From an uncultured Eubacteriales bacterium (GTDB lineage: Bacteria > Bacillota > Clostridia > Christensenellales > Aristaeellaceae), in NCBI GenBank assembly GCA_902801765.1, contig CADCJO010000012.1:1-50575 (forward strand): 50,575 nt of DNA, in the 5' to 3' direction. A program made the position numbers and the translations under genes. This document shows positions 2,126-36,458 of the stretch, one piece after another (the first letter of the stretch is position 1; every line of letters begins with the position of its first letter). The notes beneath the pieces were generated by a model. That model saw only the letters and a program-made list of their open reading frames with translations. It did no database searches and was not told the origin of the DNA.

Positions 2126-5100
2126 TTAACCAAAATACTTCTTCGCGCTACGGAACAGGCCCATGTCGTAATTGCCGGGCACGTTGCGATACAGCCCGTC
2201 GCCCACGCGCTCGCTGTGGCCCATCTTGCCCAGCACCCGCCCGTCGGGGGACAGAATACCTTCGATGGCGGCCACGGAGCCGTTGGGGTTAAAGAGAATA
2301 TCGTCGGTGGGCTGGCCGTCCAGATCCACGTACTGGGTGGCAACCTGGCCGTTGGCGATCAGCGTTTTCAGCACCTCGTCACTGCACAGGAAACGTCCCT
2401 CTCCGTGGCTGATGGGCACGGTGAACACGTCGCACACATGGGTTTCCAGCAGCCATGGAGAGTTGGCGGACGCGACTCGCGTGCGCACCAGACGGCTCTG
2501 GTGGCGGCCAATGGTGTTGTAGGTCAGAGTCGGGGCGAGGCTGCTTGGCTCGGTGATTTTGCCGTAGGGCACCAGGCCCAGCTTGATTAGCGCCTGGAAG
2601 CCGTTGCAGATGCCCAGCATCAGGCCGTCGCGGTTGTCCAGCAAATCGTGAATACCCTCGGTGACAGCGGCGCTGCGGAAGAAGGCGGTGATGAATTTGC
2701 CGCTGCCGTCGGGCTCGTCGCCGCCGGAGAAGCCGCCGGGGATGAACACGATCTGCGCGTTTTTCAGCGCCTTGCTGAACCGCTCCACGGAGTCGGAAAC
2801 GCCCTGGGCGGTCAGGTTGTTCAGCACCAGGATCTCGCCTTTCAGTCCCGCGCGTTCTACGGCTTTCAGGGAATCATATTCGCAATTGGTGCCGGGGAAC
2901 ACGGGAATCAGCACCCGGGGCACGGCGATGGAAGCCTTGGGCTTTACTGCCGGCCTGCTTTCCGCGCTGATGGTGGGTACCTCTTGCTTGCCCGGCACGG
3001 TGGCGGGATACACGCTTTCCAGCCTGCCTTCATAGAGCCTGGATAATTCATCCAGGGAAACCGCTTCGCCTTGCCAGGTGAAGCGCTTTTCTTCGGTGGT
3101 GCGGCCCAGGGAAACGCCCAGCATTTCTTCGCCCGCCAGTTCCAGAATGAATGCGCCGTACTGCTTGCGCGACAGCAGTTCCAGAGAAACGTCACCGTCA
3201 AAGGCGAAACCGAAGCCGTTGCCCAGCGTCATTTTCAGGATGCCTTCGGCGACGCCGCCCTGGTCGATCGTCCAGGCGGACAGTGCTTTTCCGCTTTGCA
3301 GCAATTCATGCACCTGCGTCAAAAGCGCCTTGAAGCTGTCCTTTTGGGGCAGACCATTTTTGTCATATTCAGGAGCCAAAAGAACCACTTTGTGCCCTGC
3401 GCCTTTGAATTCGGGGGAGCGCACTTCGTTGATTTTGTCGGTTGTCACGGCGAAGGACACCAGGGTGGGCGGCACGTCCAGCTGTTCAAAGGTGCCGCTC
3501 ATGGAGTCCTTGCCGCCAATGGCGCCGCAGCCCACATCCCACTGGGCCTGCAAAGCGCCCAGCAGCGCGGCCAGGGGTTTCCCCCACCGGTCCGCTTTGC
3601 CCTGGGGTTTTTCAAAATATTCCTGGAAGGTCAGGTAGGTATCGTCCAGGGACGCGCCGGTGGCAATCAGCTTGGCAATGGATTGGATTACCGCCAGATA
3701 CGCGCCCCGGTACGGGCTGGCTTGGGTCACATAAGGATCACAGCCCCAGGCCATGAGGGACACGGTATCGGTGTCGCCCGCTTCCCGGGAAATTTTATGG
3801 GCCATGGCCTGAATGGGGGTCAACTGATTCTTGCCGCCAAAGGGCATGAGCACCGTGCCCGCGCCGATGGTGGAGTCAAACCGTTCGGACAGGCCGCGCT
3901 GGGAGCAGGTGTTCAGATTGCCCGCCGTTTCCTTCATGCAGGCCGCAAAGGAAGCGGGGATTTTCCGGCTGTCGCAGACAGGAGCCAGCACGTGAGCCGC
4001 GGTCTGCTTGGGCGCGCCGTTGGAATTGAGGAATGCCCGGGAGATATTCACGATGGTTTCCCCGCGCCATTTCATGGTGAGGCGCGGTTCAGCCTGCACC
4101 GTCGCCACGATGGTGGCTTCCAGGTTTTCCGCGTCGGCCAGGGCAATGAACTTTTCGGCGTCCTGAGGCGCGACCACCACGGCCATGCGCTCCTGGGATT
4201 CGGAGATCGCCAGCTCGGTGCCGTCCAGTCCCTCGTACTTCTTGGGCACCTTGTCCAGGTCGATGGCGATACCGTCAGCCAGCTCGCCGATGGCCACGGA
4301 AACGCCGCCCGCGCCAAAGTCGTTGCAGCGCTTGATGAGCAGGGAGGCTTCCTTATTCCGGAACAGCCGCTGCAGCTTGCGTTCCTCCGGTGCGTTGCCC
4401 TTCTGCACCTCCGCGCCGCAGGTATCAATGGATTGCAGCGTATGGGCTTTCGACGAGCCCGTGGCTCCGCCGCAGCCGTCGCGGCCCGTGCGCCCGCCGA
4501 GCAAAATGATCACGTCGCCGGGTTCGGGGCATTCCCGCCGCACGTTTTCCGCGGGGGCGGCGGCGATCACCGCGCCGATTTCCATACGCTTGGCGGCGTA
4601 GCCGGGATGATAGATTTCATGCACTTCGCCGGTGGCCAGGCCGATCTGGTTGCCATAGGAGGAATAGCCCGCCGCGGCGGTGGTGACGATCTTGCGCTGG
4701 GGCAGCTTGCCGGGCAGGGTTTCGGACAGCGCTACGGTGGGGTCGGCGGCCCCGGTCACGCGCATGGCGGCGTACACATAGGCGCGTCCGGACAGGGGAT
4801 CGCGGATGGCCCCGCCGATGCAGGTGGCCGCGCCGCCGAAGGGCTCGATTTCGGTGGGGTGGTTGTGGGTTTCGTTCTTAAAGAGCAGCAGCCAGTCCTC
4901 CGGGCCCCTTTCCGTGTTCACCTGGATTTTCACCGTGCAGGCGTTGATTTCCTCGGACTCGTCCAGCTTGGAAAGCAAGCCCTGCTTTTTCAGATATTTG
5001 GCCCCGATGGTGGCGATGTCCATGAGGCAGACGGGCTTTTTAACGCCCAGTTTTTCCCGGACGTTCAGGTATTCCTCATAGGTTTTTTGAGCGGCGAGGT

Positions 5101-5815
5101 CGTCAAACCGCACGTCGGTCAGGTGGGTCAGGAAGGTGGTGTGGCGGCAATGGTCGCTCCAATAGGTGTCCAGCATCCGGATCTCGGTGAGGGTAGGCTC
5201 CCGGTTTTCCCGTTTGAAATACTCCCGGCAGAACTTTAAATCATCGTCGTCCATGGCCAGGCCGTACTTTTTCACAAACGCGTCCAGGCCCGCTTCGTCC
5301 AGATCCAGGAAGCCGTGCAGGGTTTCCACCATGGGCGGCTGGTCGTAATCCATTTTCAAAGTGGAGAAGGGGGCCAGGCCCGCTTCCCGGCTTTCCACAG
5401 GGTTGATGACATATTTTTTGACGGCGGCCAGGTCGCTGTCCGTCAATTCGCCGTACAGGTAATACACCCGTGCGGTACGCACCAGAGGACGGTCGCCCTT
5501 AGAAATCAGCTGAATGCACTGGCTGGCGCTGTCCGCCCGCTGGTCGAACTGGCCGGGCAGGTATTCCGCGGCAAACACGATAGCGCCCTCGGCGTCCGGC
5601 ATCTCTTCCGTCACATTGTCCAGCTGCGGCTCGCCAAACACGGTGGTTTTCAGGTGCTCGAACAAATCCGCGTCAATGTTTTCCACGTCGTAGCGGTTCA
5701 GCAGGCGCACGTTCTTCAGGCGTTCGATGCCCAGCAGGTGCTTTAAATCATTTTTCAGGCTCTGAGCCTCGTGGGCCAGGCCGGGTTTTTTCTCCACGTA
5801 TACGCGATATACCAT
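2126..5815 (-). CDS. purL: Phosphoribosylformylglycinamidine synthase, single-chain form (PurL)
   Basis: Converts FGAR, glutamine and ATP to FGAM, the fourth step of IMP synthesis, in the cytosol. At 1229 residues it is the long, self-contained type that joins the PurL synthetase halves and the glutaminase (PurQ-like) domain in one chain, so no purS or purQ is required. The glutaminase domain starts near residue 966 (PRVLIPVFPGTNCEYDS) and has the nucleophile Cys1070 in GICNGFQ and the pair His1200/Glu1202 in GHSER. The substrate-binding segment includes TYWSDHCRHTTF near residue 215. The start ATG has GGAGGGG 5 bases upstream. It is the last pur gene of the operon, 390 bp after purD. Confidence 0.97.
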   Translation of the reverse strand: MVYRVYVEKKPGLAHEAQSLKNDLKHLLGIERLKNVRLLNRYDVENIDADLFEHLKTTVFGEPQLDNVTEEMPDAEGAIVFAAEYLPGQFDQRADSASQCIQLISKGDRPLVRTARVYYLYGELTDSDLAAVKKYVINPVESREAGLAPFSTLKMDYDQPPMVETLHGFLDLDEAGLDAFVKKYGLAMDDDDLKFCREYFKRENREPTLTEIRMLDTYWSDHCRHTTFLTHLTDVRFDDLAAQKTYEEYLNVREKLGVKKPVCLMDIATIGAKYLKKQGLLSKLDESEEINACTVKIQVNTERGPEDWLLLFKNETHNHPTEIEPFGGAATCIGGAIRDPLSGRAYVYAAMRVTGAADPTVALSETLPGKLPQRKIVTTAAAGYSSYGNQIGLATGEVHEIYHPGYAAKRMEIGAVIAAAPAENVRRECPEPGDVIILLGGRTGRDGCGGATGSSKAHTLQSIDTCGAEVQKGNAPEERKLQRLFRNKEASLLIKRCNDFGAGGVSVAIGELADGIAIDLDKVPKKYEGLDGTELAISESQERMAVVVAPQDAEKFIALADAENLEATIVATVQAEPRLTMKWRGETIVNISRAFLNSNGAPKQTAAHVLAPVCDSRKIPASFAACMKETAGNLNTCSQRGLSERFDSTIGAGTVLMPFGGKNQLTPIQAMAHKISREAGDTDTVSLMAWGCDPYVTQASPYRGAYLAVIQSIAKLIATGASLDDTYLTFQEYFEKPQGKADRWGKPLAALLGALQAQWDVGCGAIGGKDSMSGTFEQLDVPPTLVSFAVTTDKINEVRSPEFKGAGHKVVLLAPEYDKNGLPQKDSFKALLTQVHELLQSGKALSAWTIDQGGVAEGILKMTLGNGFGFAFDGDVSLELLSRKQYGAFILELAGEEMLGVSLGRTTEEKRFTWQGEAVSLDELSRLYEGRLESVYPATVPGKQEVPTISAESRPAVKPKASIAVPRVLIPVFPGTNCEYDSLKAVERAGLKGEILVLNNLTAQGVSDSVERFSKALKNAQIVFIPGGFSGGDEPDGSGKFITAFFRSAAVTEGIHDLLDNRDGLMLGICNGFQALIKLGLVPYGKITEPSSLAPTLTYNTIGRHQSRLVRTRVASANSPWLLETHVCDVFTVPISHGEGRFLCSDEVLKTLIANGQVATQYVDLDGQPTDDILFNPNGSVAAIEGILSPDGRVLGKMGHSERVGDGLYRNVPGNYDMGLFRSAKKYFG

Positions 5816-5861
5816 GTTACCCCTCCGCTTTCATTACTTGCAGTTTGCAGATTGCAAACAA

Positions 5862-6201
5862 GGGAAACGGCGGGGCTTTGCCCCGCACCCCACCAGGGCA
5901 CTGAGTACCCTGGACCCGCAAAAAAAGTATGGCTTAACGCTGTAAGGCTTCTGGCCCGGCGGCTGAAAGCCGCCAGCCTGGATGCTTTGCATCCAGGGAA
6001 AGCTGAGGAATCATCCGCGAGGGAAAGTTCACTTTCCCCCACGATTTTTCCCGGCTTTCTTGGGCCAGAAGCACGCAAACATATCGTAATCCCAGCGTAA
6101 CAGGCGAAACTTGTTTTCTATACCGTACCTATTCAATCGCTAGCTGGGATGCAAGGGATGAAATCCCTTGCCGCAGGTCTGGGGGCGCGCAGCCCCCAGC
6201 G
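5862..6201 (-). repeat. Long mosaic hairpin repeat (family B, full copy 1) between purD and purL
   Basis: The 390 bp between purD and purL is filled by a chain of hairpins. In minus-strand order they are CTGGGGGC/GCCCCCAG, GCAAGGGAT/ATCCCTTGC, a block CGCCTGTTACGCTGGG, a GCTTCTGGCCCAAGAAAGCC block, GGGAAAGT/ACTTTCCC, CTGGATGC/GCATCCAG, GGCGGCT/AGCCGCC, CCAGGG/CCCTGG and GGGGC/GCCCC. The same modules in the same order and orientation occur at 14151-14546, with arm bases changed in a compensating way. No ORF of note lies inside. Confidence 0.88.
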
Positions 6202-6205
6202 TATT

Positions 6206-7477
6206 CTACCTGTCTGCTTTCAGCGCCCGCTGGCCGATGTCCCGGCGATAGAAAGCGTTGTCAAATTGCGTTTTCTCCACGGCGGCATAGGCATTGGCGA
6301 TGGCGTCTTTCAGGCTGTCCGCCGTGGCGGTCACGCCCAGCACCCGGCCCCCGTTGGTGAGCAGTTCGCCGCTCTCCCCCAGCTTCGCCCCGGCGATATA
6401 CGTCGTGATTTCGTCCGTGTCGGGCGTCAGGGTGATGGGGAAGCCCTTTTCATATTTCTGCGGATAGCCCCGGCTGGCCATGATGACGCAGCAGGCGGAG
6501 CCGTCGGAGAATTCCACCGGACACTCAGCCAGCGTCCCGTTGCGGGTAGCCTGCATGACGGCGAGCAAATCGCTCTTTAAAAGCGGCAGCACCACCTGCG
6601 TTTCCGGATCGCCGAATCGGCAGTTGTATTCGATCACCTTGGGTCCGTCCTTCGTGACCATCAGGCCGAAATACAGGCAGCCCTGGAAGGGGCAGCCCTC
6701 CTTTTCCATGGCGTGGATGGTGGGCAGGAAGATTTCCTTCATGCAGCGCTCGGCTACATCGTTTGTGTAATAGGGGTTCGGCGCGATGGTGCCCATGCCG
6801 CCGGTGTTCAGGCCCTGGTCGCCGTCCAGGGCGCGCTTGTGATCCATGGAGGACACCATGGGCTTGATGGTTTTTCCATCCGTGAACGCAAGCACGGAAA
6901 CCTCGGGGCCCTCCAAAAACTCCTCAATGACCACCCGGCTGCCGCTGTCGCCGAACACTTTGTTTTCCATCATGTCGTGGATGGCGGCGTCGGCTTCCTC
7001 ATGGGTCTGGGCAATGATGACGCCCTTGCCCAATGCCAGGCCGTCAGCCTTGATAACGGCGGGAAGCGGCGCGGTTTTGAGGTATGCCCGGGCGCTGTCG
7101 GCGTCTGTGAACACCCGGCATTTGGCTGTCGGGATGCCGTACTTCTGCATCAGCTCCTTGGCAAACACCTTGCTGGCCTCAATGCGGGCGGCGTTCTTTC
7201 TGGGGCCGAAGGAGGGCACACCCGCCGCCTCCAGCGCGTCCACCGCGCCCAGGGCCAGCGGGTCGTCCGGGGCCACTACGGCGAAGTCGACCTTATTTTC
7301 AACGGCAAACTTCACGATGCCGTCAATGTCCTTCGCCCCGATGGGTACGCAAACCGCGTCCCTGGCAATCCCGCCGTTCCCCGGCAGGGCGTAAATGGTT
7401 TCCGCTTCCGGGCTCTTTTTCAGCGCCTTGATGATGGCATGCTCCCGCCCGCCGGAACCGACGACAAGTATTTTCAT
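6206..7477 (-). CDS. purD: Phosphoribosylamine--glycine ligase (PurD)
   Basis: An ATP-grasp ligase that joins glycine to phosphoribosylamine to give GAR, the second step of purine synthesis. The 423-residue length and the opening MKILVVGSGGREHAI are typical; the ATP-grasp core includes the LPAVIKADGLALGKGV segment and the metal-binding FGDPETQ motif. I chose the ATG at 7477 rather than upstream ATGs because it gives the conserved N-terminus and has AGGAGG 7 bases ahead. It follows the 2H phosphoesterase by 62 bp and precedes purL, separated from it by the long repeat. Confidence 0.97.
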   Translation of the reverse strand: MKILVVGSGGREHAIIKALKKSPEAETIYALPGNGGIARDAVCVPIGAKDIDGIVKFAVENKVDFAVVAPDDPLALGAVDALEAAGVPSFGPRKNAARIEASKVFAKELMQKYGIPTAKCRVFTDADSARAYLKTAPLPAVIKADGLALGKGVIIAQTHEEADAAIHDMMENKVFGDSGSRVVIEEFLEGPEVSVLAFTDGKTIKPMVSSMDHKRALDGDQGLNTGGMGTIAPNPYYTNDVAERCMKEIFLPTIHAMEKEGCPFQGCLYFGLMVTKDGPKVIEYNCRFGDPETQVVLPLLKSDLLAVMQATRNGTLAECPVEFSDGSACCVIMASRGYPQKYEKGFPITLTPDTDEITTYIAGAKLGESGELLTNGGRVLGVTATADSLKDAIANAYAAVEKTQFDNAFYRRDIGQRALKADR

Positions 7478-7539
7478 GGAGGGGCCTCCTTGTATGGATT
7501 CAATACGAAACAAAAGACCTGGCTGAAACGACGGTTGAT

Positions 7540-8046
7540 TTATTGACCGCCCGTCAATGGCATCGCCGCGATTTCCCGCGTCGGCCAGAAGGCGCATAAA
7601 TGCAGCCTGGTTATTTTGCCAATAAAGGGTGTGAAGGAACGCACCAGCACAGGCACCGCCGCGCAAACCGTTTCCGGCGTGTCGATCAGGATGGTGACGT
7701 GTGGCGTCCAGGGGTAAGGCTGGGGCGCGCCTGAATCACAGACGTCGTGAAGCGCGGTCAGTTCAGCGCTTCTTTCCGGCGCGCCAAACAGAACCTGGCC
7801 GCCGGGGAAAATGCCGATATGACTGATGTGTACCGGAATCGGAGGAAAAGCCGCCGCGGCTTTTTTCATCCGTTCCACCGCTTCCCGCTCCTTTTCCAGC
7901 GGAAACGTGGACAGGCTGATATGGTAAGGAAGCGGGGTCTGCGTCCCGGTAAAACCCGCTTCCTTTAAGGACTGATACCATTCGCCCATGCGCCTTTGGG
8001 AAGCATCGTCCAAATCCGCCATTAGCGTGAGAAACTGTTCTTCCAT
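7540..8046 (-). CDS. 2H phosphoesterase superfamily protein (2'-5' RNA ligase-like)
   Basis: The 168-residue protein has the two HxS/T motifs of the 2H phosphoesterase fold: HISLSTF near residue 42 and HVTILID near residue 116. Proteins of this family ligate or hydrolyse 2'-5' RNA linkages or cyclic phosphates; the actual substrate here cannot be told from sequence. It starts with ATG after AAAGGG and lies 15 bp behind the toxin gene, so it is probably cotranscribed with the toxin-antitoxin pair. It sits inside the purine operon without an evident purine role. Confidence 0.82.
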   Translation of the reverse strand: MEEQFLTLMADLDDASQRRMGEWYQSLKEAGFTGTQTPLPYHISLSTFPLEKEREAVERMKKAAAAFPPIPVHISHIGIFPGGQVLFGAPERSAELTALHDVCDSGAPQPYPWTPHVTILIDTPETVCAAVPVLVRSFTPFIGKITRLHLCAFWPTREIAAMPLTGGQ

Positions 8047-8061
8047 GTATTTCCCTTTCGG

Positions 8062-8385
8062 TCAAATCCGCTTCCGCATATAGTGGAAATAGTCCTGCTT
8101 CTCATTGAAGAAAGTGTGGAGATAGACCTTGTGTTCAGAGTCATCCATCAGGTAGAAAGTCAGATAATGCTTATATACCAGATACCGATAGCCCAATGCT
8201 TTGAGCACATAATCCTTAGGAACAGCACCTCTTTCCGGATAGGATTCCAGCGCAAGGGATTGCTCCTGAAGGGCAGTGACAAAGGAAACTGCGGTATCCA
8301 AATTTACTGACTGTTCGTAAAGATTCAGGGTGATTTCCCGAAAGTCCTGTTTGGCGGTATCAGTCATGAGGACATTCCACTTCAT
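8062..8385 (-). CDS. RelE/ParE-family toxin of a type II toxin-antitoxin system
   Basis: The 107-residue protein has the RelE/ParE layout: an N-terminal TDTAKQDFREI helix, ALESYPERGAVP, the strand YRYLVYKHYLTFYLMD and a C-terminal tail with several aromatic and basic residues. RelE members cleave mRNA on ribosomes and ParE members poison gyrase; sequence alone does not decide which. Its ATG overlaps the TGA of the antitoxin gene (ATGA), typical of coupled toxin-antitoxin genes. Confidence 0.85.
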   Translation of the reverse strand: MKWNVLMTDTAKQDFREITLNLYEQSVNLDTAVSFVTALQEQSLALESYPERGAVPKDYVLKALGYRYLVYKHYLTFYLMDDSEHKVYLHTFFNEKQDYFHYMRKRI

Positions 8386-8678
8386 TTTGCGTCAGCCCTC
8401 AATTCCCGGAGGATGTCCTCAAAGGCTTCGTTTGCGGGCTGCACTCTGCCGAGCTTCACATCGTCGGCGGCTTGAGCCAGATGAGCGTAAACAGCCAGCC
8501 GGCTTTCCATTTCTTCCATTTTCCGTTGCTGCTCCATGTATTGCTCATGGGCAAGCAGAACAGTGTCCTCCCTGCCGTTTACGGTGATCGCTATGGGATT
8601 CTGCTTTGCTTCCGCCGAGAGCTGGGCATAATGGGTTCTCAGGTCACGGGAAGGGCGAATCGAAATCCTCTGGGTCAT
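8382..8678 (-). CDS. Phd/YefM-like antitoxin
   Basis: The 98-residue product begins MTQRISIRPSRDLRTHYAQL and contains the pattern NPIAITVNGREDTVLLAHEQY characteristic of the Phd/YefM DNA-binding fold, followed by a helical C-terminus likely to bind the toxin. The ATG at 8678 is preferred over the GTG three codons upstream because GGAAG is 8 bases ahead of it. The operator-like palindrome in its promoter fits autoregulation, as known for this family. Confidence 0.82.
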   Translation of the reverse strand: MTQRISIRPSRDLRTHYAQLSAEAKQNPIAITVNGREDTVLLAHEQYMEQQRKMEEMESRLAVYAHLAQAADDVKLGRVQPANEAFEDILRELRADAK

Positions 8679-8702
8679 ACGCAGCACTTCCTTTCCTTAT
8701 TG

Positions 8703-8738
8703 TAGTCACATTGTAATGCAATATGACTATTTTGTCAA
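8703..8738 (-). promoter_or_regulatory. Promoter and palindromic operator of the toxin-antitoxin pair
   Basis: On the minus strand TTGACA (8733-8738) and TACAAT (8710-8715) are 17 bp apart. The spacer and -10 lie inside an inverted repeat with arms TAGTCATATTG and CAATGTGACTA (8719-8729 and 8703-8713; 10 of 11 positions pair). Such overlap fits repression by the antitoxin or the toxin-antitoxin complex (inference from the family). Confidence 0.78.
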
Positions 8739-8780
8739 CGCATAGGGAAGGAAAGGAAAGTAGCTTTCATCTTTTACAGC

Positions 8781-8840
8781 TTTCTCGGAAGGGGGTTTGG
8801 GGGGAACCGCTCTTTGGCTTCCAAAGAGCGGTTCCCCCCC
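8781..8840 (-). repeat. 3'-end hairpin repeat (family A) after the AICAR transformylase gene
   Basis: On the minus strand a hairpin with arm GGGGGGAACCGCTCTTTGG follows the stop codon by about 17 bases and is itself followed by ACCCCCTTCCGAGAAAGC. Compared with the copy after purL, bases in both arms differ but remain paired. The rest of the gap up to the toxin-antitoxin promoter holds no gene. Confidence 0.85.
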
Positions 8841-8857
8841 AGAAAACTTTTTCGTCC

Positions 8858-10042
8858 TTAATGATGGAACAGGCGCATGCCGGTGAAGGCCATGACCATG
8901 CCGAATTTATCGCAGGTTTCGATGACCTGGTCGTCGCGGATGGAGCCGCCGGGCTGGGCCACATAGGAAACGCCGGAGCGGCGGGCGCGCTCAATGTTGT
9001 CGCCGAAGGGGAAGAAGGCGTCGCTGCCCAGGGACACGCCGGTGATGGCGTCCAGGAAGGCGCGCTTTTCGGCGCGGGTAAAGGGCGCGGGGCATTCGGT
9101 AAAGAACTTCTGCCAGTTGCCGTCGGCCAGCACGTCCTCGTCCTGGTCGGACAGGTATACGTCGATCACGTTGTCCCGGTCAGCGCGGCCCAGGGTGGGC
9201 AGGAAGGGCAGGGAAAGCACCTTGTCGCTCTGGCGCAGATGCCACTTATCAGCCTTGTCGCCGGCCAGACGGGTGCAGTGGATGCGGCTTTGCTGGCCCG
9301 CGCCCACGCCGATGGCCTGGCCGTCGTAAGCGTAGCAGACGGAATTGGACTGGGTGTATTTGAGGGTAATGAGGGAAATGATCAGATCCCGCTTGGCTTC
9401 GGCGGGCAGGTCCTTCTTCGCGGTGGGGATGTTTTGCAGCAGCGTTTCGTTGATTTCAAAGTTGTTGCGGCCCTGCTGGAAGGTGACGCCAAACACGTCC
9501 TTGGTTTCCACGGGATTGGGCACATAATCGGGGTCGATCTTCACGATGTTGTAATTGCCCTTGCGTTTGGACTGGAGAATTTCCAGGGCTTCGTCGGTAT
9601 AGCCGGGGGCGATGATGCCGTCGCTGACTTCACGCTTGATGATGAGGGCGGTGGTCTTGTCGCACACGTCGGACAGGGCGATCCAGTCGCCAAAGGAACT
9701 CATGCGGTCCGTACCGCGGGCGCGGGCGTAAGCGCAGGCCAGGGGGGATTCGTTGAGACCCGGAATGTCATCCACAAAGCAGGCTTTCATGAGCTTATCG
9801 CTGAGGGGCAGGCCCACGGCGGCGCAGGTGGGCGATACGTGCTTGAAGGACGCGGCGGTGGGCATGTTCAACGCCGCTTTCAGCTCCTTCACCAGCTGCC
9901 AGGAGTTGAGCGCGTCCAGGAAATTGATGTAGCCGGGACGGCCGCAGAGGATTTCAAAGGGCAGGTCTCCCCCATCCTTCATGTAGACTTTCGCGGGCTT
10001 CTGGTTGGGGTTGCAGCCGTATTTCAATTCAAATTCTTTCAT
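8858..10042 (-). CDS. purH: AICAR transformylase, stand-alone domain of PurH
   Basis: Formylates AICAR with 10-formyltetrahydrofolate to FAICAR, the ninth step of IMP synthesis. The 394-residue protein covers only the transformylase half of bifunctional PurH: it opens with KYGCNPNQKPAKVY, carries the catalytic Lys-His pair in ASFKHVSP and ends in the FGMVMAFTGMRLFHH tail typical of the family C-terminus. There is no MGS-like cyclohydrolase domain. ATG has AAGGAGA upstream. It follows the purO gene by 18 bp, so the two catalysts of the missing bifunctional enzyme are neighbours. Confidence 0.93.
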   Translation of the reverse strand: MKEFELKYGCNPNQKPAKVYMKDGGDLPFEILCGRPGYINFLDALNSWQLVKELKAALNMPTAASFKHVSPTCAAVGLPLSDKLMKACFVDDIPGLNESPLACAYARARGTDRMSSFGDWIALSDVCDKTTALIIKREVSDGIIAPGYTDEALEILQSKRKGNYNIVKIDPDYVPNPVETKDVFGVTFQQGRNNFEINETLLQNIPTAKKDLPAEAKRDLIISLITLKYTQSNSVCYAYDGQAIGVGAGQQSRIHCTRLAGDKADKWHLRQSDKVLSLPFLPTLGRADRDNVIDVYLSDQDEDVLADGNWQKFFTECPAPFTRAEKRAFLDAITGVSLGSDAFFPFGDNIERARRSGVSYVAQPGGSIRDDQVIETCDKFGMVMAFTGMRLFHH

Positions 10043-10060
10043 GACGCGGACTCTCCTTTT

Positions 10061-10768
10061 TTACTGATATTTATTGACAATGCGGGTTTCCGCGTCGCCA
10101 TTTTTCAGGGTGATATAGCGCACGAACAGGGAAATCTTGTTGGCTTCGTTCAGGTTTTCCCAGATGGCGTTGGTAAATTCGTCGATATCGTTCATGGTTT
10201 CGATCTGTTCGGGTTCCCCTTCAAAGGAGGGCAGGGGCTTGCCGTCGCCCTGGTAAGTGTGGATGAAGTGGCCCAGGCCGGGAACGGAAGCCAGGTCGAA
10301 GGTATAGCGGTTGCACTTCTTGCCTTCGCCGTCGGCGCACTTGAGGATGCTCATCTGATACCAATAGCTGGCGTTGAAGTGCAGCAGGGCGCTGATGCGG
10401 GGGGTGTAATTGGGCTTGTCCGGCTCGAAGCCCCGGGTGCGCAGGGCGTTTTCAAAGGAGTCGTGCTTGTTCAGGAAATCACGGATGGTGTCGGTCTGGT
10501 CGCCATTGGTGACGATCAGCTTGTTTTTCAGCGCCCGGGCAGGGGCGTAAATGATGAGGGACGGGTCTTCCACCTTGGATTCGTCATAGGGGTAGATCAT
10601 CACGTCGTTGCCCTCGGCGCGGAACACGCGGTTGCGGCTGTTCTCGCTGCGGCCCATGATGAAATAAGCGGTCACGGCCTTTGTTCCATCGGGGGTGGTG
10701 CCCACGATAATGCCGCGGCCGGGATAGACGTTGGAGGAGAGGAGGGAGGCGATGGATACTTTCTGCAT
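10061..10768 (-). CDS. purO: IMP cyclohydrolase, archaeal PurO type
   Basis: Closes FAICAR to IMP, the last step of the pathway. The 235-residue sequence (SSNVYPGRGIIVGTTPDG near the start, AYFIMGRSENSRNRVF, PALLHF-like ISALLHFNASYWYQMSILK) resembles the PurO family first known from archaea (about 200 residues there) and shares no likeness with the PurH cyclohydrolase domain. Position directly before the stand-alone transformylase supports this call. The start ATG has a weak AAAGGGG site about 10 bases ahead. The extra length compared with archaeal forms is unexplained. Confidence 0.88.
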   Translation of the reverse strand: MQKVSIASLLSSNVYPGRGIIVGTTPDGTKAVTAYFIMGRSENSRNRVFRAEGNDVMIYPYDESKVEDPSLIIYAPARALKNKLIVTNGDQTDTIRDFLNKHDSFENALRTRGFEPDKPNYTPRISALLHFNASYWYQMSILKCADGEGKKCNRYTFDLASVPGLGHFIHTYQGDGKPLPSFEGEPEQIETMNDIDEFTNAIWENLNEANKISLFVRYITLKNGDAETRIVNKYQ

Positions 10769-10790
10769 GATAGGTCGGCCCCTTTCTGAA

Positions 10791-10842
10791 AGTGTGGAGT
10801 TTGGAAAGCGGAGTGTGGAGTTTGGAGAGTGGAGTGTGGAGT
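10791..10842 (-). repeat. Short tandem repeat of about 21 bp
   Basis: The plus strand reads AGTGTGGAGTTTGGAAAGCGG, then nearly the same again (GAGTGTGGAGTTTGGAGAG), then a third partial unit before a T-run. It lies directly upstream of the purO ribosome binding site on the minus strand. No function is evident. Confidence 0.75.
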
Positions 10843-10880
10843 TTTTTTGAAACCATACCAGTACAAATAAGCAACATACT

Positions 10881-11021
10881 TGTCATCCCGAGCGAAGCCG
10901 AGCAAGAGGCGAGGCGCAGTCGAGGGATCTGAGAGCGATGAGGTAAACCAAACAATGTGACAAGGAACTCCCAGGTCCCTCCACTACGCTTCGCTCTCGC
11001 TCCGCTTCGGTCGGGATGACA
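10881..11021. repeat. Inverted-end repeat starting TGTCATCCCGA between purN and purO
   Basis: The segment begins TGTCATCCCGAGCGAAGC and ends GCTTCGGTCGGGATGACA, so its ends are inverted repeats, with internal arms such as GAGGGATCT and GTCCCTC. Elements starting TGTCATCC(C/T)GAGC are frequent in many bacterial genomes. It has no coding capacity and occupies most of the 297 bp gap between purN and purO. Confidence 0.7.
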
Positions 11022-11065
11022 AAGCAACAATCACGATTGATGTTTATTGATTGATCGATCACATT

Positions 11066-11668
11066 TTAAACACGGAGAATTGTTTGCGCCGCCAATTCCG
11101 CCGCTTGGGGCAGGATGATCCATTCAGCCTGCTCCATGACCCGGCGCTGGAGGATTTCGGGGGTGTCGCCCGGCTCCACGTTCACGGCTTTCTGGAGGAT
11201 GATCTCTCCCCCGTCGGCGATCTCGTTCACATAATGCACCGTGGCGCCGGTGACCTTGACGCCTCTTGCCAGCGCGGCTTCATGGACGTGGAGCCCATAA
11301 TAGCCCTTGCCGCCGAAGGCGGGCAGCAGGGCGGGATGCACGTTCAGGATGCGGCGGGGATAACGCTTCACGAAATCTTCGGACAGGATGCTCATGAACC
11401 CGGCCAGGATGATCAATTGCACCTGCTTTTTTTGCAGTTCAGCTAAAATCTCCGCTTCAAAGGCTTCCTGGGTTGTGCCCTTGCGCTGGGCCACATAGGT
11501 GGGGATGCCCGCCTTTTCCGCGCGGGTCAGGGCGTAGGCGTCGGGCCGGGAGGCGATCACGGAAACGAATTCCACGTGGGGCAGCTTGCCCGCTGCTTTC
11601 GCGTCGATCAGCGCCTGCAGGTTGGTGCCGCCGCCGGACACCAGCACGGCGGTTTTGACCGTGCTCAT
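11066..11668 (-). CDS. purN: Phosphoribosylglycinamide formyltransferase (PurN)
   Basis: Transfers a formyl group from 10-formyltetrahydrofolate to GAR, giving FGAR. The 200-residue length is normal. The N-terminal VLVSGGGTNLQALI binds the phosphate of GAR; the catalytic Asn and His are in LNVHPALLPAF, and the conserved Asp lies in EIADGGEII. Its ATG overlaps the TGA of purM (ATGA), so the two are translationally coupled. The PurT alternative is excluded because there is no ATP-grasp fold. Confidence 0.97.
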   Translation of the reverse strand: MSTVKTAVLVSGGGTNLQALIDAKAAGKLPHVEFVSVIASRPDAYALTRAEKAGIPTYVAQRKGTTQEAFEAEILAELQKKQVQLIILAGFMSILSEDFVKRYPRRILNVHPALLPAFGGKGYYGLHVHEAALARGVKVTGATVHYVNEIADGGEIILQKAVNVEPGDTPEILQRRVMEQAEWIILPQAAELAAQTILRV

Positions 11669-12675
11669 GCCAGGATCACCCCTTCATTGCCTTCCACGAT
11701 TTCGCCCAGCACATAGCTGCCGGGGCACAGGGACAGCACCTTTTCGGCTTTCTCCGGGCTGGCTACCAGCGCCATGCCCACGCCCATGTTGAAGGTGTTG
11801 AACATATCGCGCTCGGGGATGTTTCCTTTTTCCTGGAGGAAGCGGAAGATTTCGGGCGTCCTGACCGCGGCCTTGTTCACTTTAGCGGACACGCCGTCCG
11901 GCAAAGCCCGGGGAATATTTTCAAAGAAGCCGCCGCCGGTAATATGCGCCGCGGACTTGATCAGGCCTTGCTCCACCAGGGGCAGCACGTCCTTCACGTA
12001 AATCTTCGTGGGGGTCAGCAGGGTCTGGCCCAGGGTGGAATCCCCAAAGGGCATGTTCAGATCCAGATCGGCAATGATTTTCCGAACCAGGGAAAAGCCA
12101 TTGGAATGGACACCGGTGGAGGGCAGGGCGATCAGAACATCGCCGGGCCGGACAGCGGTTTTGTCCAGAATTTTTTTCTTGTCCACCACGCCGACGCAGA
12201 AGCCCGCCAGGTCGTATTCGTCCTCGGGATAGAAGCCGGGCATTTCGGCGGTCTCCCCGCCGATGAGCGCCGCGCCGCTCTGCACGCAGCCTTCGCACAC
12301 GCCCGCCACGATGGAGGCGATCTTCTCCGGCACGTTCTTGCCGCAGGCGATATAGTCCAGGAAGAACAGGGGCTTGGCCCCGCAGACGATCACGTCGTTG
12401 ACGCACATGGCCACGCAGTCGATGCCCACTGTGTCGTGCTTGTTCTGGTCAAACGCCAGCTTGAGTTTGGTGCCCACGCCGTCGGTGCCGCTGACCAGCA
12501 CAGGCTGCTCCATGCCCTTCACGTCCAGCTCGAACAGCCCGCCAAAGCCGCCCACGCCGCCGAGGGCTCCCGCTGTCAGGGTGCGGGCGATATGGCTTTT
12601 CATCAGCTCCACGGCCTTGTAGCCCGCGGTGATGTCCACGCCGGAGGCTTTATAGGATTCGGAATAGCTCTTCAT
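11665..12675 (-). CDS. purM: Phosphoribosylformylglycinamidine cyclo-ligase (PurM)
   Basis: Uses ATP to close FGAM to AIR, the fifth step. The 336-residue protein starts MKSYSESYKASGVDI and shows the family landmarks VSGTDGVGTKLKLAF, CVNDVIVCGAKPLFFLDY, LIGGETAEMPGFY and HITGGGFFENIPR. The upstream in-frame ATG at 12783 would add 36 residues that are a shadow of purF, so I use the ATG at 12675, whose ATGA overlaps the purF stop. Confidence 0.97.
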   Translation of the reverse strand: MKSYSESYKASGVDITAGYKAVELMKSHIARTLTAGALGGVGGFGGLFELDVKGMEQPVLVSGTDGVGTKLKLAFDQNKHDTVGIDCVAMCVNDVIVCGAKPLFFLDYIACGKNVPEKIASIVAGVCEGCVQSGAALIGGETAEMPGFYPEDEYDLAGFCVGVVDKKKILDKTAVRPGDVLIALPSTGVHSNGFSLVRKIIADLDLNMPFGDSTLGQTLLTPTKIYVKDVLPLVEQGLIKSAAHITGGGFFENIPRALPDGVSAKVNKAAVRTPEIFRFLQEKGNIPERDMFNTFNMGVGMALVASPEKAEKVLSLCPGSYVLGEIVEGNEGVILA

Positions 12676-14111
12676 TCTTCGGGCCGCCTTTCGCTCTTCT
12701 TGTACTCGAACCGGGACTTGGCGCGGTTGGTGGGGATTTCTGTGGTGTAGTTGCCGGAGAAGCAGGCGTCGCAGTAGCCGCACAGGGTACCGCCGTCCGC
12801 CAGGCAGTGCACGTCGTTCATATCCAGATAACCCAGGGAATCCACGCCGATGATCTCCGCGATTTCGGGGATGGAATGGCGGCAGGCGATCAGATGGTCG
12901 CGGGAATCGATGTCCGTGCCGTAGTAGCAGGGATTCAGGAAGGGCGGTGCGGTGACGCGGAAATGCACTTCCGTCGCGCCCGCTTCCCGCAGCAGGTTCA
13001 CGATGCGCTTGCTGGTGGTGCCGCGCACGATGGAATCGTCGATCAGTACCACGCGTTTGCCCCGCACCACGGAAGCGATGGGGTTCAGCTTAATGCGCAC
13101 TTTGTCCTCGCGGCTCTTTTGCCCCGGAGAAATGAAGGTGCGGCCGATATAGCGGTTCTTGATAAAGCCCATGCCGTAGGGAATGCCGCTTTCCTGGCTG
13201 TAGCCGATGGCGGCGTCCAGGCCGGAATCCGGCACGCCGACAACGATGTCCGCATCCACGGGATGGGTCTTCGCCAGGCACGCGCCAGCCCGCACGCGGG
13301 CTTCATGAACGCTGGCCCCGTCGATCACAGAATCGGGCCGGGCGAAATAAATGTACTCAAACACGCACAGAGAGGGCTTGCAAATGCCGCAGTGCTCCCG
13401 GATGGAACGCATGCCGCTCTTTTCAAATACGATGATTTCGCCGGGCTCCACGTCCCGCACCATTGTCGCGCCTACCGCGTCCAAGGCGCAGGATTCGCTG
13501 GCCACCACGAAGCTGCCGTCCGGCAGGGTGCCAAAGCACAAGGGGCGGAAGCCGTGAGGGTCACGGGCGGCAATCAGCTTGCTGGGCGACATGACCACAA
13601 GAGAAAACGCGCCATGAATCCTGCGCATGGCGCGGCAAAGAGCCTCCTCAATGGAGGGGGCCGTCAGGCGTTCCTTGGTAATAATATAAGAAATGACTTC
13701 GGTGTCAGAGGTGGTATGGAAAATAGAGCCGCCCAGCTCCAGCTGCTCCCGCAGCTCGGCGGAGTTCACCAGGTTGCCGTTATGGCACAGCGCCATGGGG
13801 CCCTTCACATGGTTGACCACGATGGGCTGGGCGTTCATCCGGGAGGAGGAGCCGGTGGTGCCGTAACGCACGTGGCCCACCGCCATATCGCCCAGGCCCA
13901 GCTTCGTCATTTCGTCGGGGGTGAACACGTCGTTCACCAGGCCGTTGTCCTTATGGGCGGTGAACAGGCCGTCGTCGTTCACCACGATGCCGCAGCTTTC
14001 CTGGCCCCGGTGCTGCAGGGCGAACAGCCCGTAATACACCGTGGAGGCCACGTCCCTGCGTTCCTTGCTCAGGATACCGAATACGCCGCATTCTTCGTGT
14101 AATTGACTCAT
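12672..14111 (-). CDS. purF: Amidophosphoribosyltransferase (PurF), iron-sulfur type
   Basis: Makes phosphoribosylamine from PRPP and glutamine, the committed and feedback-inhibited first step. The 479-residue protein begins MSQLHEECGVFGI: removal of seven residues would expose the N-terminal nucleophile Cys8. The PRPP loop is VVLIDDSIVRGTTSKRIV. Cysteines in CVFEYIYF, NPCYYG and CGYCDACF correspond to the [4Fe-4S] ligands of the Bacillus-type enzyme, which makes it oxygen-sensitive. The ATG at 14111 is chosen because upstream in-frame ATGs lie in the repeat; its ribosome binding site (AAAGGG, about 12 bases away) is weak. Confidence 0.97.
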   Translation of the reverse strand: MSQLHEECGVFGILSKERRDVASTVYYGLFALQHRGQESCGIVVNDDGLFTAHKDNGLVNDVFTPDEMTKLGLGDMAVGHVRYGTTGSSSRMNAQPIVVNHVKGPMALCHNGNLVNSAELREQLELGGSIFHTTSDTEVISYIITKERLTAPSIEEALCRAMRRIHGAFSLVVMSPSKLIAARDPHGFRPLCFGTLPDGSFVVASESCALDAVGATMVRDVEPGEIIVFEKSGMRSIREHCGICKPSLCVFEYIYFARPDSVIDGASVHEARVRAGACLAKTHPVDADIVVGVPDSGLDAAIGYSQESGIPYGMGFIKNRYIGRTFISPGQKSREDKVRIKLNPIASVVRGKRVVLIDDSIVRGTTSKRIVNLLREAGATEVHFRVTAPPFLNPCYYGTDIDSRDHLIACRHSIPEIAEIIGVDSLGYLDMNDVHCLADGGTLCGYCDACFSGNYTTEIPTNRAKSRFEYKKSERRPEE

Positions 14112-14150
14112 ATATCGTATAAACCCTTTCTTGTGTGGGATGTCAAACCG

Positions 14151-14546
14151 AGAGAACGGCGGGGCTTTGCCCCGCACCCTACCAGGGGGATGATCCCCCT
14201 GGACCCGCAATAGTGGAATCATCTTGAATCGTCGATCCAATTTGATTCCCATTGTTACATGAGAGAACGCGGAAGTCTGACTTACTGACATGACGCTTCT
14301 GGCCCGGCGTCCTTTGGACGCCAACCGGATGCAAAGCATCCGGGAAAGCCAGGAAATCATCCGATGGAAAAGTTTACTTTTCCATCGGATCTTTCCGGGC
14401 TTTCTTGGGCCAGAAGCCCGCCAACTTTCCGTAACCCCAGCGTAGCAGGCGGAATATATTTTCGCTTCCATGCCTGTAAAATCGCCTATTGGGATGCAAG
14501 GGATATATCCCTTGCCGCAGGGTTTGGGGCCGCGGAGGCCCCAACG
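14151..14546 (-). repeat. Long mosaic hairpin repeat (family B, full copy 2) between purC and purF
   Basis: This second copy has the same hairpin modules, order and orientation as 5862-6201. Arms differ in a paired way, for example GATGGAAAAGT/ACTTTTCCATC here against the GGGAAAGT/ACTTTCCC stem there, GGCGTCC/GGACGCC against GGCGGCT/AGCCGCC, and CCAGGGGGA/TCCCCCTGG against CCAGGG/CCCTGG. It fills the 456 bp between purC and purF. An extra unshared stretch of about 60 bp near 14215-14290 separates two of the modules. Confidence 0.88.
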
Positions 14547-14567: not shown

Positions 14568-15278
14568 TTAATCTCCCAGCAGCCGACGCATAATTTCCTG
14601 ATACGCGTCCTCGACGCCGCCCAGGTCGCGGCGGAAGCGGTCCTTGTCCAATTTTTCGTGGGTGGTGGAATCCCAGAAGCGGCAGGTGTCAGGGGAGATT
14701 TCATCCGCCAGCACGATCTGGCCTTCCTTGGTCTTGCCGAATTCCAGCTTGAAGTCGATCAGCTCAATGTTGGCTTCCTTGAGATATTCGGACAGCACCT
14801 GATTGATCTTGAAGGAATAGGAAGCGATCAGGTCGATTTCTTCCTTGGTGGCCCAGCCCATCGCCAGGATGTGGTATTCGTTCACCATGGGATCGCCCAG
14901 ATCGTCGTTCTTGTAGCAGTATTCCAGTACGGTGCTGCCCATCTTCACGCCCTCGGGCAGGCCCAGCCGCTTGGCGAGGGAGCCCGCCGCGATGTTGCGC
15001 ACGATCACTTCCAGGGGCACGATGGAAACCTTCTTCACCAGCGTTTCCCGGTCGTTCAGTTCTTCCACATAGTGGGTGGGCACGCCGTTCTTTTCCAGCA
15101 GCCGCATCAGATGGTTGGTGACCCGGTTGTTGATGACGCCCTTGCCCATAATGGTGCCCTTTTTCAGACCGTTAAAGGCGGTGGCATCGTCCTTGTAGGA
15201 TACGATGCAGTAATCGGGATTGTCGGTGGCGAATACTTTCTTGGCTTTCCCTTCGTACATCTGGATGGTCTTTTCCAT
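14568..15278 (-). CDS. purC: SAICAR synthetase (PurC)
   Basis: Condenses CAIR with aspartate using ATP to form SAICAR. The 236-residue length and the sequence [51 protein letters not shown] and [14 protein letters not shown] match the family closely. The ATG has a GGGGAAGAGGAG site. It lies 37 bp downstream of purE. The purB lyase for the next step is not in this window. Confidence 0.97.
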
Positions 15279-23710: not shown

Positions 23711-23726
23711 AAGAGACGAAGTTCCT

Positions 23727-23786
23727 GGGGGAAACCGCTCTTTGTAGCCAAAGAGCGGTTTCCCCCAAGCCCCCTTCCGAGAAAGC
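23727..23786 (+). repeat. 3'-end hairpin repeat (family A) after the PotB-like gene
   Basis: The stem with arm GGGGGAAACCGCTCTTTG starts 16 bases after the TAA and is followed by AGCCCCCTTCCGAGAAAGC. It lies inside the importer operon, between permease and ATPase genes, in the sense orientation. Confidence 0.88.
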
Positions 23787-25978: not shown

Positions 25979-26144
25979 GGGGGAAACCGCTCTTTGGAGG
26001 CCAAAGAGCGGTTTCCCCCAGGTCCGCAGCCTCAATCGGCGCAAGTCCGCTTCATGCGGACATTGCTTGTTTCGGCTGATCTCACCGTCGATTCGATTTC
26101 CGCCATTGGCGGGAATCGACGGTTCGTCCCCCTTCTGAGAAAGC
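25979..26144 (+). repeat. 3'-end hairpin repeat (family A), copy split by about 100 bp
   Basis: The stem GGGGGAAACCGCTCTTTGG with its complement starts 13 bases after the PotD-like stop. Unlike the other copies, the closing block CCCCCTTCTGAGAAAGC comes only about 105 bases later; the stretch between (26024-26128) holds further hairpins such as GTCCGC/GCGGAC and a GTCGATTC/GAATCGAC stem. It looks like an insertion into the repeat. Confidence 0.82.
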
Positions 26145-26248: not shown

Positions 26249-26389
26249 AACCTCTCAGTCGGCTGCGCCGACAGCTCCCCTGATAGGGGAGCCGATCATG
26301 CCTCCCCTATGAGGGGAGGTGGCGCAAAGCGCCGGAGAGGTTTTGCTTCCCCTATCAGGGGAGGTGCCCCCGCAGGGGGCGGAGAGGTT
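26249..26389. repeat. Intergenic palindromic repeat, CCTCTC...GAGAGG type
   Basis: Starts AACCTCTCAGTCGGCTGCGCC and ends GGCGGAGAGGTT, with internal stems CTCCCCT/AGGGGAG repeated three times and GGCGC/GCGCC. Repeats of this layout are very common in gut Clostridia. Together with the family A copy it fills the 487 bp between the PotD-like and PotC-like genes. No gene is present. Confidence 0.75.
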
Positions 26390-27238: not shown

Positions 27239-27431
27239 TACTGTCCATTTTCCAATACTGTTTTCACTCTGAAATTTTGAATCTTTGGGCAGTGTTTCCA
27301 TGGCGTTGGTTCATCCCGGTCAACGAAGCGCTGCTATGCCTCCCTTCATCCAGCTTGGCCAAAGCAAAGAATCTATCCTAAATCTTTCAATATTACAGAA
27401 TTCTAACAGTCATGTTGTGAAGGGTAAAAGA

Positions 27432-36326: not shown

Positions 36327-36458
36327 AGCTTTCACGAAGGTGCGTAAGATCACCTTATTATTGCTAAGTAAGGGCTGTCGGGGCTGAATAAGCCCCGATG
36401 CTTATCTTTACTTTCATCCTTTATAACATGAATGCTAAGTTTTTAAAGCGGTAAAGTA

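Follow-up and report, generated by a model that had tools for sequence, protein, structure and literature searches.

BOX elements are intergenic repeats not known to have a transposase of their own. In Streptococcus pneumoniae they are described as modular, folded sequences of 67–637 bp, with 125 copies in the genome and a distribution limited to nearly one species plus a close relative, and were judged parasitic by the authors of that account (PMC3049150). Prokaryotic miniature inverted-repeat transposable elements (MITEs) are, according to PMC10969869, typically AT-rich, derived from insertion sequences (IS) and accompanied by direct repeats whose conservation wanes with time, and repetitive extragenic palindromic (REP) units measure 20–40 bp, some being thought to be moved by RAYT transposases (PMC3733652; PMC3116915; PMC2817692). 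Template switching, in turn, has been reported to homogenise hairpin arms and to invert the spacers between them (PMC8604942; PMC8794818); compensatory change together with loop inversion is presented as the strongest possible support for the process, yet as extremely rare in ribosomal RNA (rRNA) (PMC8794818). Here we describe a family of multi-hairpin repeats of ~400 bp, two full copies of which form spacers of the pur operon in a 50,575-nucleotide stretch of an uncultured Eubacteriales bacterium of the gut (contig C12, CADCJO010000012.1 of assembly GCA_902801765.1; the whole contig, hereafter the window).

These two spacers are probably insertions of a non-coding, non-autonomous mobile element whose palindromes are kept partly by template switching, and the family is best read as a MITE/BOX-like, multi-hairpin one. 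A hidden Markov model (HMM) built from 36 copies of the own genome gave 379 raw hits in the collected loci, reduced to 186 non-overlapping hits and to 173 unique copies once window rows and identical rows were removed; 126 of these, including 39 from the own genome, span at least 300 model positions. The own genome (2.4 Mb in 93 contigs, 81% complete and broken at element copies) holds 40 long matches on both strands and 15 short ones (40 scored of 135 candidates). In a survey of 60 genomes, with at most the best 10 candidates scored in each, 27 matched, comprising the own genome, 25 of 28 relatives of the same genus and one of 31 genomes outside it. Half of the relatives (14 of 28) matched below E 1e-20, the remainder weakly or not at all, and the sole matching genome outside the genus (G042) had 11 matches with a best E of 9.8e-9. 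The element is confined almost entirely to one genus. A search of the genome and its relatives for copies and covarying pairs, proposed in an earlier sequence-only reading of the window, thus returned many of both, and the repeat is dispersed as that reading had supposed.

Presence and absence of the element differ between species at orthologous sites. The purL/purD spacer could be found in 20 of the 28 relatives and is 8 bp or less in 18 of them, the other two having 97 bp (G023) and 372 bp (G019), the latter not matched by the element HMM. Likewise, the purF/purC spacer, found in 13 of 28 relatives, is 4 bp or less in 11, with a contig end there in one; in G013 this spacer contains an element insertion in the opposite orientation and with different flanks, which is independent of the own-genome copy. 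Twelve further own copies were followed to their orthologous sites; for nine of the 12 a single fetched locus of G019 or G007 covered both flanks, and the element was present at three of five sites in G019 (a count that leaves aside two additional G019 sites known as coordinates only) and at none of six in G007. Mobility of the family is well supported. As a separate observation, the 372 bp insert at the purL–purD junction of G019 (locus L162), the closest relative, is hairpin-rich and differs from the element.

A conserved 20-mer occurs in at least 90 stretches of GTDB genomes; the 80 listed are Clostridia-type metagenome-assembled genomes (MAGs) plus two Chloroflexi. The titles of the MAGs among the matches listed name Clostridia, Clostridiales, Christensenellaceae and Oscillospiraceae, and many of them point to ruminants by the words goat, deer or buffalo or by RUG, which we take to stand for rumen. 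The two Chloroflexi matches (L091, L092) were rejected as family members, the model having matched over 21 bases only. No match was found in GenBank phages and plasmids. A full copy is present on an IMG/VR contig (L266), one gene of which matches a major head protein. On this phage contig and at one own copy (L017), the element appeared by eye to lie beside the same short sequence 5' of a similar gene, in opposite orientations.

When the left 160 columns of the consensus were aligned with the right 143 in reverse complement, the score was 136, against a mean of 64.9 (sd 7.9, maximum 89) in 200 shuffles. Because the alignment lies so far above the shuffles, the element is an imperfect inverted duplication, in which the left-arm hairpins hp1 and hp2 mirror hp7 and hp6 of the right arm, loops included, and a core of three hairpins (hp3–hp5) stands between them. 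Several copies carry a left-end block turned round at the opposite end. Terminal inverted repeats, of either of two types, bound many copies, with 82 matches to type 1 (three mismatches or fewer) and 100 to type 2 (two or fewer) in the own genome, and none to either pattern written backwards as a control. Counted by hand, 36 of the 53 type-2 matches on the reverse strand are no more than 300 bases from the start of a contig, as expected of near-identical copies that break an assembly; the element helps explain where this assembly is broken. Units bounded by the repeats vary by module loss, the smallest being 110 bp (L233) and 96 bp (L254). As far as our search shows, this architecture is new, no description of the family having been found in literature with an open licence. 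Other repeats were seen by eye inside the element hairpins: an 87-nt hairpin repeat, or one related to it, in the right hairpin of L012, L017 and L018 and at the left end of L018 and L026 (43 matches in the own genome, best 40 of 59 candidates), and another short palindrome within hp2 of L026, L242 and L244.

The likeness to BOX elements is one of description, both being modular, folded and taxonomically narrow; BOX elements as portrayed in PMC3049150 have terminal repeats and target duplications, whereas the present element is a seven-hairpin inverted duplication for which target duplication was not seen. With the MITEs of PMC10969869 it shares short length, lack of coding capacity, terminal inverted repeats, intergenic position and folded transcripts, but its GC content is 0.587 versus 0.569 for the window, and it has no direct repeats or IS source that we could find. 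Measured against the usual description of a MITE, the element has terminal inverted repeats, a high copy number, an intergenic position (by a crude open reading frame (ORF) caller), no genes and empty sites, and shows no clear excess of target-site duplications at the 12 + 26 flank pairs compared; no ends shared with an autonomous relative were found among the repeat ends, in a genome that is 81% complete and fragmented where copies lie. REP, BIME and REPIN sequences are also high-copy extragenic palindromes, some closely spaced in opposite orientation (PMC3733652), but REP units are 20–40 bp long compared with ~400 bp here. RAYT transposases are of the Y1 type, and membership of the RAYT/REP group was rejected, PF01797 having no match in the own genome.

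Covariation between paired bases is widely taken as evidence of a functional RNA fold, and the sequence-only reading had concluded from paired arm changes that the folded form is under selection or needed for spread. The arm changes it quoted are present in the sequence, and arms do change together across the family. Over the 126 long copies, 94 pairs are common to the consensus folds of both strands, 41 of which show a double Watson–Crick change in at least two copies; their cells comprise 10469 Watson–Crick, 122 G-T, 142 A-C and 156 other combinations, with 96.1% Watson–Crick observed versus 86.0% when partners are shuffled. Since choosing shared pairs is biased against strand-specific wobble, the union of both folds was also taken, in which 122 of 127 pairs have at least half Watson–Crick cells (13049 Watson–Crick, 416 A-C, 317 G-T and 358 other). 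A core alignment was made from 58 of the 118 available copies, 57 of them distinct; its cells are paired in 97.9%, and double changes occur in 18 of 47 pairs, a number reached in none of 500 shuffles. Between nearest disjoint copies, pair-keeping two-sided versus one-sided changes numbered 3/6, 25/41, 91/98 and 120/134 in four distance classes, ratios taken without a null model, which we read as few intermediates.

A structured RNA element acting in many operons through processing, stability or attenuation, its pairing kept by selection on the transcript, would account for this covariation beyond 500 shuffles and for the strong folds on both strands. The minus-strand consensus, on the strand of the pur operon, also has more pairs (117 versus 104) and a slight wobble excess. 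Arm pairs are, however, 92–96% Watson–Crick with little strand bias and wobble in ~1–3% of cells on either strand, the loops of the core are found in either orientation (see below), the sites are empty in sister species, and there is no match in Rfam. Neither is a clear orientation preference seen in the 34 own copies for which the crude ORF caller gave both neighbours (-- 13, -+ 8, +- 8, ++ 5). We regard this explanation as quite improbable. Covariation is not by itself proof of RNA selection here, since wobble is rare and nearly strand-symmetric and core loops recur as reverse complements; of the earlier conclusion, a need of the fold for spread remains tenable and the step to selection is weakened.

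Selection could instead act on the DNA if the mobilising enzyme, or a protein of the host, recognises hairpins or cruciforms; the arms would then be kept paired by purifying selection, not by template switching. Consistent with this, paired columns change less than unpaired ones (6.6% versus 20.8% between nearest copies of the 0.16–0.30 distance class), pairing is nearly strand-symmetric, and the core stem GCTTCTGGCCC/GGGCCAGAAGC is unchanged in 108 copies. Selection on the fold alone does not, however, predict reverse-complement loops, and the two smallest units (L233, L254) are still bounded by terminal repeats although they have no core. We consider selection on a DNA fold rather unlikely to be the explanation.

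Loops provide evidence of a different kind. Among the 75 distinct asymmetric loops of the seven hairpins, 18 also occur as their reverse complement, compared with two for the plain reverse and none for the complement. In hp4, TTT (n = 57) and AAA (n = 24) are accompanied by TTC (n = 15) and GAA (n = 10), and in hp5 TTCA (n = 10) and TGAA (n = 9) by TTTA (n = 14) and TAAA (n = 4). When loops of equal length on the same arm haplotype are compared, 10 of 124 pairs are related as reverse complements (AAA/TTT being counted as such), one as a reverse and none as a complement. By parsimony over five hairpins, 24 changes are exact reverse complements, 14 of them in hp4, versus 41 single substitutions; a further 28 are reverse complements plus one substitution, 30 are changes of length and 25 are others. 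We also compared loops between nearest copies, using 59 disjoint pairs and five hairpins (295 cells), 110 cells being dropped for a missing or imperfect hairpin. In the 185 left, arms were the same in 127 (loop the same in 88, an exact reverse complement in 13, a reverse complement plus one substitution in seven, substitutions in 19), both arms had changed in 32 (15, two, seven and eight, respectively) and arm length had changed in 26; 'reverse complement plus one' is weak evidence for three-base loops.

The best current explanation for the reverse-complement loops of the core hairpins, resting on pattern and not on experiment, is that they are a footprint of template switching during replication. 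The element would be moved in trans by some enzyme, and its hairpins would form in single-stranded DNA at replication, where a template switch could correct one arm from its partner and invert the loop, so that the palindromes may be held near-perfect at least partly in this way. Template switching at palindromes predicts both the rare, nearly strand-symmetric wobble and the reverse-complement loops with no selection on a folded RNA required, and the covariation seen here looks at least in part like an outcome of DNA replication. Loop inversions and compensatory changes of several bases are likewise features of the template-switch RNA hairpins of PMC8794818, but the rRNA data presented there include six cases of compensatory change with loop inversion and 69 of inversion alone, compared with the 24 inversions versus 41 substitutions inferred here. 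A stronger proposal, that this is a selfish multi-palindrome element with self-perfecting core hairpins that replication template switching rewrites again and again, whose arms change in concert and whose loops flip to give RNA-like covariation without RNA function, is put forward tentatively; the odds of it being right are lowered because the outermost hairpins show no loop inversion. If true, bacterial template-switch mutations would be naturally recorded by such an element. A family of 173 distinct copies with both covariation and inverted loops could help to tell compensation in steps from template switching in a single event. It is also a warning to RNA-discovery pipelines, since mobile palindromes can look like structured RNAs.

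Recombination offers another route to concerted arms, by swapping whole hairpin modules between copies so that covariation need not arise from change within a hairpin. The arms indeed fall into few discrete haplotypes (GGCGGC, GGCCGC, GGCGTC), hp1/hp7 and hp2/hp6 share inverted homology, left-end blocks sit at the other end elsewhere, and the outer hairpins change arms while loop orientation stays. A loop and its reverse complement on one arm haplotype are left unexplained by swapping, unless exchange took place in inverted register across the short arms. On balance, module swapping as the source of the covariation seems doubtful.

Several observations weigh against a mobile element maintained by template switching. 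On the side of mobility, no clear excess of target-site duplications over mismatched pairs was detected (12 type-2 and 26 type-1 flank pairs; offsets -8 to +15, lengths 2–9), though old duplications may have decayed; both full window copies and about nine other own copies have no terminal repeat recognisable by eye; no Y1_Tnp domain (PF01797) was found in the 81%-complete own genome, the control being positive in 5/14 and other transposase families unsearched genome-wide; and no repeat pair enclosing a transposase-sized gap was seen by eye in tables limited to 2–3 mismatches. On the side of template switching, the loop signal is uneven (14 of 34 asymmetric loops in hp3–hp5, 4 of 23 in hp2 and hp6, and 0 of 18 in hp1 and hp7), the tree used for loop states is rough and its repeats may have recombined, and where both arms had changed the loop was most often unchanged (15 of 32, against nine with a reverse complement or a reverse complement plus one). 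Furthermore, of the five remaining union pairs four are A-C, near-fixed or in the majority of copies, and one is a near-fixed G-T, and the union cells tilt slightly towards minus-strand wobble (A-C 416 versus G-T 317), leaving room for some selection on the minus-strand fold.

An autonomous copy was looked for at 20 stretches with type-1 ends, 15 of which hold the element body. In the remaining five, ten ORFs (a subset of those listed) were compared with Pfam and no transposase family was matched; eight match other families, including DUF4368 in L265, which we take to be a domain of serine recombinases, and two match nothing. An IS630-like TA target for the type-1 ends was rejected, the TA lying, by eye, inside a longer inverted repeat.

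Within the window (Table 1), the partial copy that the sequence-only reading placed at 23–84 is real and is truncated by the contig start. Copies 1 and 2 align collinearly in one orientation with 80% mean column identity, in agreement with the claim of about nine shared modules in the same order and orientation, although 'nine' is slightly generous as copy 1 is without ~59 columns present in copy 2, the gap falling after the second hairpin. On both strands, the two copies fold better than 100 of 100 dinucleotide shuffles (z = -8.2, -9.3, -9.6 and -12.8).

Table 1. Element copies, their hairpins, terminal-repeat matches and flanking pur genes in the window.
Feature	Position	Strand	Details or basis
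Element copy 1	5862..6201	+	Between purD and purL; nhmmer hit 5774-6202, model 6-407
hp1 of copy 1 (left outer hairpin)	5870..5886	+	Sequence
hp2 of copy 1	5893..5913	+	Sequence
Central core of copy 1	5947..6072	+	Closing stem GCTTCTGGCCC/GGGCCAGAAGC enclosing hp3, hp4 and long hp5 arm
hp6 of copy 1 (inverted homologue of hp2)	6151..6171	+	Sequence
hp7 of copy 1 (inverted homologue of hp1)	6179..6199	+	Sequence
Element copy 2	14151..14546	+	Between purC and purF
hp1 of copy 2	14159..14175	+	Sequence
hp2 of copy 2	14182..14202	+	Sequence
Central core of copy 2	14295..14417	+	Sequence/fold analysis
hp6 of copy 2	14496..14515	+	Sequence
hp7 of copy 2	14524..14544	+	Sequence
Third copy, cut by contig start	1..103	+	hp6 30-50, hp7 58-76, type-2 terminal-repeat match 88-103
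Solo type-1 terminal-repeat-like match	27403..27423	+	2 mismatches
Solo type-1 terminal-repeat-like match	36418..36438	-	3 mismatches
purL	2126-5815	-	
purD	6206-7558	-	
purF	12672-14111	-	
purC	14568-15278	-	

The genes purL, purD, purN, purM, purF, purC and purE were confirmed with NCBIfam, all on the minus strand. The spacers had been suggested to set relative levels of PurF and PurL, and the presence of two copies in one operon of this genome would fit a conserved regulator of the pur operon. This is most improbable, and a pur-specific regulator was rejected: most of the relatives in which either site could be located have it empty, and the family is genome-wide. Copy orientations are, in addition, mixed, and the pur spacers contain zero and one promoter-like and one and one terminator-like matches, with shuffle means of 0.3–0.8. 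The terminator-like match of copy 1 and the promoter-like match of copy 2 are on the operon strand, as a structured RNA might have them, and are near shuffle expectation. No Rfam family reached its gathering score over the window, so membership of one was rejected; a relaxed scan of copy 1 gave sub-threshold hits only, that with the lowest E-value being Clostridiales-2 (20 bits versus a cut-off of 58.6). Any effects on pur expression would be incidental, arising from a long structured spacer without sign of dedicated regulation.

Other palindromes also occur in the window. A second family, with a GGGGGAAACC-type hairpin, has four copies (2072-2114, 8799-8841, 23726-23768 and 25979-26021) and 78 matches in the own genome, each palindrome being counted on both strands (best 40 of 72 candidates). 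Two more large imperfect inverted repeats lie at 26249-26389 and 10880-11022.

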